Positions 35,980 to 38,792 of a stretch of DNA of 38,792 bases are shown here, piece after piece. Position 1 is the first letter of the stretch. Each line of letters starts with the position of its first letter. A program made the translations under genes and the position numbers. The stretch covers positions 131,503 through 170,294 of the forward strand of contig JAQVJU010000002.1 in NCBI GenBank assembly GCA_028694995.1, given 5' to 3'. The notes under the pieces are model-generated. The model was given only the letters and a program-made list of their open reading frames with translations, was not told where the DNA came from and ran no database searches. This stretch comes from Minisyncoccota bacterium. GTDB taxonomy: Bacteria; Patescibacteriota; Minisyncoccia; UBA6257.

Positions 35980-36579
35980 TTAGTTCCCCTGACCATTAAA
36001 ACAATTCTCGCCTACTCCAGTTGCAGTGGGGGGAAGGTTAAGATTAGTACCTATTTCATAAAGGTTGTCTAATATTCCACCATCTTTGCTTTCTACATCA
36101 CCTGAACCTCCGTTTTTATAATAGTCACTTTCCATATTTGCAGTCAATTTGAAGGTTTTATCTGTGTCCACAGTATAAACATAGTATTGAATACCAGTTT
36201 CACTAGAAGCATTGGGATCAACTGGTAAAACACTAATTGGTGAACCACCGCTTGATTTTGTAAAGTCAATAGGAACCCATCCACTACCAGTAATAGCTTG
36301 AGAGTGATTTGTATGTGCTCCTCTACTGTCACAAACAACATTAGAAACATGGGAATAGGTTGTAGTGCTGTTTCCTATGAAAATAGGTGCTTCTCCTTCA
36401 CTCAAATAAAAAGCAATAGCTGTTTTAAGAGTGTTTAAGTCAGAAATTCTTTGAGAATCACGGGCTTTCTTTAAGAGTTCAGCAGGGTTAATAACTAACA
36501 CTATGGTTGTTGAAAGAATTGCTAAGATACCAATAACGATAAGCAATTCTAATAAAGTAAATCCTTTTTTTGTATTCAT
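35980..36579 (-). CDS. Type IV major-pilin-like protein, copy 2
   Basis: MNTKKGFTLLELLIVIGILAILSTTIVLVINPAELLKKARDSQRISDLNTLKTAIAFYL. Confidence 0.92.
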   Translation of the reverse strand: MNTKKGFTLLELLIVIGILAILSTTIVLVINPAELLKKARDSQRISDLNTLKTAIAFYLSEGEAPIFIGNSTTTYSHVSNVVCDSRGAHTNHSQAITGSGWVPIDFTKSSGGSPISVLPVDPNASSETGIQYYVYTVDTDKTFKLTANMESDYYKNGGSGDVESKDGGILDNLYEIGTNLNLPPTATGVGENCFNGQGN

Positions 36580-36650: not shown

Positions 36651-37235
36651 TTAATCTTTAAAACAACCTGAGAGTGTTGAGGTAGGCCCAAGGTTAAGAT
36701 CTGTACCTACTTCATAAAGTGTATCTATTTTCCCACCATCCTTATCTACTACTCTAGTAGGTGTTTCTGTACCATAATACTTACTTTCCATATTAGCCAT
36801 TAATTTAAAAGTCAATTTTGCTTGATTGGCAAAATAGACATAATAAAGATGACTTGCTTTTTCATTAACTGGATCTATAGGCAAAACACTAATTGGTGAG
36901 CCACCAGGCATTGCGCTAAAGTTAATAGGTATCCAACCATCCCCATTAACTTTTTGTGATTGTTCACTCACGGAGCTGCCAGTATCACATACAACATCAG
37001 CTACATAACAATATGAGGTATGGGTGCCATCTGTTATCTCTGGATCTGCTGTCTCTGTCAAATAAAAAGCAATGGCTGTTTTAAGAGTGTTTAAGTCAGA
37101 AATTCTTTGAGAATCACGGGCTTTAGCTAATAACTCAGCAGGGTTAATAACCAATACAATGGTTGTTGAAAGAATTGCTAAGATACCAATAACGATAAGC
37201 AATTCTAATAAAGTAAATCCTTTTTTTGTATTCAT
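36651..37235 (-). CDS. Type IV major-pilin-like protein, copy 1
   Basis: MNTKKGFTLLELLIVIGILAILSTTIVLVINPAELLAKARDSQRISDLNTLKTAIAFYL. Confidence 0.92.
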   Translation of the reverse strand: MNTKKGFTLLELLIVIGILAILSTTIVLVINPAELLAKARDSQRISDLNTLKTAIAFYLTETADPEITDGTHTSYCYVADVVCDTGSSVSEQSQKVNGDGWIPINFSAMPGGSPISVLPIDPVNEKASHLYYVYFANQAKLTFKLMANMESKYYGTETPTRVVDKDGGKIDTLYEVGTDLNLGPTSTLSGCFKD

Positions 37236-37983: not shown

Positions 37984-38792
37984 AAAAGAAAAGTTTCACC
38001 ACCAGCTTCCGCTAGCAGTGCCTTGTTATGACTTAGCCCCTGTCACCGAACCTACCCTAGTTCCTGTAAACAGGATTTTTAGGTATTCCCGGCTTCCTTG
38101 ACTTGACAGGCGGTGAGTACAGAGTTCGAGAACGTATTCACCGTGGTGTGGCTGACCCACGATTACTAGCGATTCCAACTTCATGAGGTCGAGTTTCAGA
38201 CCTCAATCCGGACTGGGAGATTGTTTGATGCGATTAGCTCCGCCTTACGGCTTGGCAACGCATTGTCAATCCCATTGTAACATGAGTGTCGCCCAGGGCA
38301 TCAAAGGGCCATGCTGATTTGACGTCATCCCCTCCTTCCTCCCTCCTCAAAAAGCACTTCTCAATATTTTAAAAATGAAATGCTCTTTGAGGAGGGCGGT
38401 TTTTTGTGACACATATAACACAAAACAGGGGTTGCGCTCGTTTCCCCACTGAAGGGCACAACTCGCGTCACGAGCTGACGGCCATATGCTTCTATTATTA
38501 CTAATAGTATGGACTATACCATCACCCTTGGAAATTAAAATTTCAAAGGGGACCAGCGTCTTATTATTTACTAAAAATAAATAATAAAATCTTTAATATT
38601 TTTTAAAGATTAAGTCTCTACGGGGTCAATGATGACTTCCCACGGTATTACCCATTTTAAATTTTAAAAATTAGGGTTTCACCGTTATGAGCTGGTTTTT
38701 TCATTCTAAATTACTTTAGAATGGGTCGACTTTTCAACCATGCAGCACCTGTCCTGATGTCCTTGCAGAAGGCTCAACTTTCATTAAGCTTT
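37984..38792 (-). rRNA. rrs: 16S rRNA gene, 3' part (5' part beyond window), interrupted by intron 38483..38735
   Basis: Conserved blocks on minus strand: GACAGGTGCTGCATGG, AAACGAGCGCAACCCC, GACGTCAAATCAGCATGGCCC, GGAATCGCTAGTAATCG, CACGGTGAATACGTTC, TAACAAGG, h45 with GGAA loop. 3' end placed by alignment to E. coli. Confidence 0.95.
38483..38735 (-). mobile_element. ORF-less group I intron in 16S rRNA (near E. coli position 1060)
   Basis: Core ACGGTGAAACCC ... GGTAATACCGTGGGAA ... CCCCGTAGAGACTTAAT ... GGTGATGGTATAGTCC. Exons join to GCATGGTT|GCCGTCAGC; P1 possible between exon GGUU and intron GACC with U.G at the 5' splice site; intron ends in G. Confidence 0.9.

Follow-up and report, generated by a model that had tools for sequence, protein, structure and literature searches.

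A compensated U1404-A1497 pair in the 16S rRNA decoding centre of a CPR bacterium and its recurrence in other bacteria and archaea

Introduction

The C1404-G1497 base pair at the top of helix 44 (h44) of 16S rRNA has been described as universally conserved and as adjoining the P-site codon, and breaking the pair by mutagenesis impaired tRNA binding (PMC3900107 and work cited therein). Both bases are also part of the hygromycin B site (PMC5774723). A second element of the 3' end of this molecule, the CCUCC core of the anti-Shine-Dalgarno (anti-SD) sequence, is known to have been lost in individual CPR lineages, including the Campbellbacteria and Wolfebacteria, according to PMC10783764.

In the present work, we have analysed a 38,792-nucleotide stretch of DNA (hereafter the window), which comprises positions 131503-170294 of the 170294-nucleotide contig C6 of a CPR (Paceibacteria-type) genome and carries the 3' portion of an rrs (16S rRNA) gene. 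In comparison to the canonical h44 of the bacterial SSU model RF00177, the window has a pair at the same position, with the same partners, the same 5' pyrimidine/3' purine orientation and the same neighbours (G1405-C1496 and U1406-U1495); however, the canonical pair is C-G, whereas that of the window is U-A. Features of the window are summarized in Table 1; rRNA positions are given in E. coli numbering, anchored on the 1392-1407 motif together with the RF00177 alignment.

Table 1. Coordinates of features in the window
Feature	Position	Strand	Basis or remark
3' part of 16S rRNA gene (rrs)	37997..38792	minus	RF00177 match; intron inside at 38483-38735
U1404 (usually C), 5' partner of top h44 pair	38108	minus	Sequence and RF00177 alignment
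A1497 (usually G), 3' partner of U1404	38029	minus	Sequence and RF00177 alignment
U1396 (usually A), h28	38116	minus	Sequence; expected partner A921 on missing 5' part
Putative group I-like intron of 253 nt in h34, lacking a homing-endonuclease ORF	38483..38735	minus	Junction from intronless G007
Helix 45, CACUGCUAGC GGAA GCUGGUGGUG, C1506 replacing U1506	37997..38020	minus	10 pairs by inspection (G-U counted)
Predicted 16S 3' tail AAACUUUUCUUUU, without CCUCC anti-SD core	37984..37996	minus	Sequence; identical tail in G002
Enlarged hairpin CCCTCCTCAAAGAGCA...TGCTTTTTGAGGAGGG, h40 region	38341-38398	minus	
Tandem type IV pilin-like genes	35980-36579 and 36651-37235	minus	Near-identical leaders and 5' ends

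The 16S rRNA locus and its integrity

The Rfam model RF00177 aligns positions 38792-37984 of the window as bacterial SSU rRNA (317.5 bits, E 2.1e-97, model positions 993-1533). The gene is cut at 38792 by the end of the contig, which is also the end of the window, and some 990 nt on its 5' side are missing from the contig as a result. On the minus strand the gene reads TGTACTCACCGCCTGTC, with T at the positions corresponding to 1404 and 1396, and AAGTCATAACAAGG, with A at 1497, in agreement with the C1404U and G1497A changes that a preliminary description had assigned to this locus; the RF00177 alignment treats the substituted columns 1404 and 1497 as paired. That a sequencing or assembly error accounts for these bases is extremely improbable: they rest on a single contig of this genome, but G002, a second species of the same genus, carries identical bases at 1404, 1497 and 1396, which excludes an error of a single assembly, and two specific substitutions that restore pairing recur in separate genomes from several genera, as well as in many other phyla.

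The truncated state of the gene, the intron within it and a search of the rest of the genome in which the 5' half of the 16S rRNA was not found could be read as signs of a decaying rrs pseudogene in which both changes arose by chance. This reading is highly improbable, since the window's rrs is the sole SSU locus of the genome (503,762 bases in 6 contigs, rated 100% complete), the paired changes are common to four genera, and the contig of the congener G002 breaks off in the corresponding part of the 16S gene, so that the truncation looks like a product of assembly rather than of decay. In addition, the exons of the window and G002 differ at only 2 of 538 nt over two exon pieces, whereas identity is about 96%, with indels, once the flanking DNA is aligned as well. 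The much better preservation of the exons than of the flanks supports purifying selection on rrs and argues for a functional gene. Together with the family-wide occurrence of U1404 with A1497, it sustains the earlier reading of this locus as a functional rRNA, a view that is supported at the level of sequence.

The intron in h34 follows AUGGUU and ends in G; in G007 the exon junction is uninterrupted, AUGGUU being joined directly to GCCGUCAG, while G002 has a longer copy of the intron with an ORF. An assignment to a group I-like class fits the splice-site bases and an AGAGACU...AUAGUCC motif recognized by eye, but a search of Rfam gave no group I intron match at E<0.1 and put a name to none of the insertions (the h34 insertion of the window, and those of L034, L053 and L055). 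The enlarged hairpin in the h40 region is found in G000 and G002 but not in G007. Elsewhere in the window, the tandem type IV pilin-like genes are probably the result of a recent duplication.

Distribution of the U1404-A1497 pair

Within the family to which the window belongs, U1404 and A1497 are present together in 5 of 5 genomes with data (G000, G002, G005, G007 and G009, representing four genera), while C1404 with G1497 is retained in the remaining families sampled from the order. In G007 and G009, AAGTCATAA is followed, directly after A1500, by another insertion that differs from the one in h34, and this intron concealed the motif from the search pattern in these two genomes. Within the same class, A1497 is found in a second family (f188), and a record named as Portnoybacteria (L135), with h45 as in f188, has the pair U1404-A1497.

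The recurrence of the pair was surveyed by a species-level scan (one genome per species) for 16S stretches with any non-C base at 1404 and any base at 1497. The scan returned at least 118 stretches, of which L085 was set aside as matching by chance outside 16S and L150 was excluded for its variant flank (it is also U-A), leaving 116 16S genes. Among the matches listed, U-A accounts for 114 of these 116, the two exceptions being a U-G (L147, Clostridia) and an A-G (L071, Rickettsiales), and a reversed pair, with a purine at 1404 and a pyrimidine at 1497, is found in none of them. By record title, the bacteria among the matches listed include Alphaproteobacteria, other proteobacteria, Clostridia, Anaerolineae, Phycisphaerae, Omnitrophota, WOR-3, Dojkabacteria, and Paceibacteria, and the archaea include Thermoplasmata, Micrarchaeota, and Nanohaloarchaea. 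The scan is conditioned on non-C1404, C1404-A1497 mismatches being measured solely in smaller samples, and counts across related genomes are non-independent. The contig L175 (JAPLLU010000140.1), 4 kb long and assigned to the Omnitrophota, has a 16S 3' end nearly as in the window's family, and its placement there is probably a binning error.

The covariance of columns 1404 and 1497, which had been proposed as a check on the compensatory reading of the two changes, is seen in an unconditioned sample of the phylum, for which the listings of the two motifs were joined by hand: among the genomes listed, the 52 with both motifs comprise 48 C-G, 4 U-A (G260, G287, G338 and G420) and 0 mixed combinations, with a chance probability of 3.7e-6 if the genomes are taken as independent and phylogeny is ignored. 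The compensatory reading thus agrees with this sample, with the A1497 of 114 of the 116 non-C1404 genes among the matches listed and with the family-wide U1404-A1497. The preliminary description had also given the C-G motifs as near-universal; the rarity of the alternative was overstated there, as U-A has recurred in many phyla. A search of the literature for U1404/A1497 found nothing relevant. Common primers of the 1392R and 1492R types presumably mismatch U1404-A1497 lineages.

Hence, the matched swap in at least 114 listed bacterial and archaeal 16S genes indicates that it is a recurrent, tolerated natural variant, and not decay, error or a unique trait. The same compensated U1404-A1497 as in the window is present, for example, in Portnoybacteria (MHMT01000001.1), Dojkabacteria (AP026679.1), Nanohaloarchaea (CP046106.1), and Enterousia (OX097180.1). 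Most examples from outside the Paceibacteria keep A1396 and the CCUCC anti-SD, whereas the window has U1396 and lacks the anti-SD.

Position 1396 and helix 28

Position 1396 pairs with position 921 in h28 of the E. coli 16S rRNA. Among 113 distinct 16S sequences, 921-1396 is U-A in 65 and A-U in 48, with no mixed combination, and A921-U1396 is found throughout the window's order except in one foreign-looking contig (L052). As U1396 is invariably accompanied by A921 in the relatives with a full 16S, the U1396 of the window is the norm for its order and belongs to a predicted second compensated pair. The T reported earlier at this position is therefore correct, but it is not the additional oddity for which it was taken. 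The base that lies beneath the wobble position of the P site, C1400, is replaced by U in several of the order's families and in other parts of the phylum (L003, L004, L008, L014, L016, L017, L020, L023 and others).

The missing anti-Shine-Dalgarno sequence

In the window, an intact helix 45 is followed by AAACUUUUCUUUU in place of GAUCACCUCCUUU, and with CCUCC absent from its predicted tail the 16S rRNA would be anti-SD-less. Almost all of the order's sampled genomes likewise have no CCUCC after helix 45, while it is retained by several of the families in the class and by the phylum genomes listed. A core SD motif precedes 3 of the 28 ATG-start ORFs of the window. An alternative SD matching the AAACUUUUCUUUU tail was sought upstream of these 28 ORFs and rejected: the full tail gave no signal (z -0.6), and the weak value for the tail core (z -2.7) is no larger than that for the canonical anti-SD (z -3.0), neither being convincing. 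The lack of CCUCC and the scarcity of SD motifs resemble category iv of PMC10783764 (anti-SD-less and SD-scarce prokaryotes, including Campbellbacteria, Wolfebacteria, and SR1); the window's family is unnamed in the available part of that source, and the lack seen here covers nearly the whole sampled order. As anti-SD loss in CPR is already described there, the order-wide loss is an extension and not a discovery. The missing anti-SD, which was absent from the preliminary description, is nevertheless a more unusual feature than the 1404-1497 swap.

The presence of both C1404 and G1497 in the hygromycin B site (PMC5774723) and the repeated fixation of U-A in different lineages raise the question of whether the swap is adaptive, for example through a lower affinity for hygromycin-type compounds or as an adjustment to the missing anti-SD. 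Such a role is improbable. The anti-SD is retained by most U-A carriers outside the window's class, and C-G by most of the relatives that lack the anti-SD, so that the two traits are not tied, and a link between them was rejected for want of co-occurrence. The presence of RsmE, the U1498 methyltransferase, does not track the pair either: it is absent in the window's genus and present in the U-A genomes G007 and G009, and its association with U-A was therefore rejected. RsmH, the modifier of the adjoining C1402, is present in 23 of 23 genomes checked. It is also unlikely that A921-U1396 in h28, U1404-A1497 in h44, C1506 in h45 and the missing anti-SD amount to a joint remodelling of the neck used in initiation and decoding, one that would reflect SD-independent placement of the start codon.

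Evolutionary significance of the exchange

The observations are in all likelihood best explained by a functional decoding-centre end of 16S rRNA whose first h44 pair is no longer C1404-G1497 but the isosteric U1404-A1497. Under this proposal, U1404-A1497 would stay beside the P-site codon with its pyrimidine/purine orientation unchanged, which would preserve the stack between C1403 and G1405-C1496 and let decoding work normally; we infer that the effect on decoding is neutral or close to it. The route probably consisted of two transitions via a U-G wobble, and the swap was probably fixed once in the ancestor of the window's family, with probably independent origins in many other lineages. We take the exchange to be drift that is close to neutral and constrained by the need for pairing.

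A pair that has been called universally conserved (PMC3900107) is naturally U-A in more than a hundred species from many phyla, and our survey contradicts its universality. The recurrence of U-A, together with the lack of a reversed pair among the 116 genes listed, provides natural evidence that selection guards the pairing of 1404 with 1497 and its pyrimidine-purine orientation rather than the C-G identity itself.
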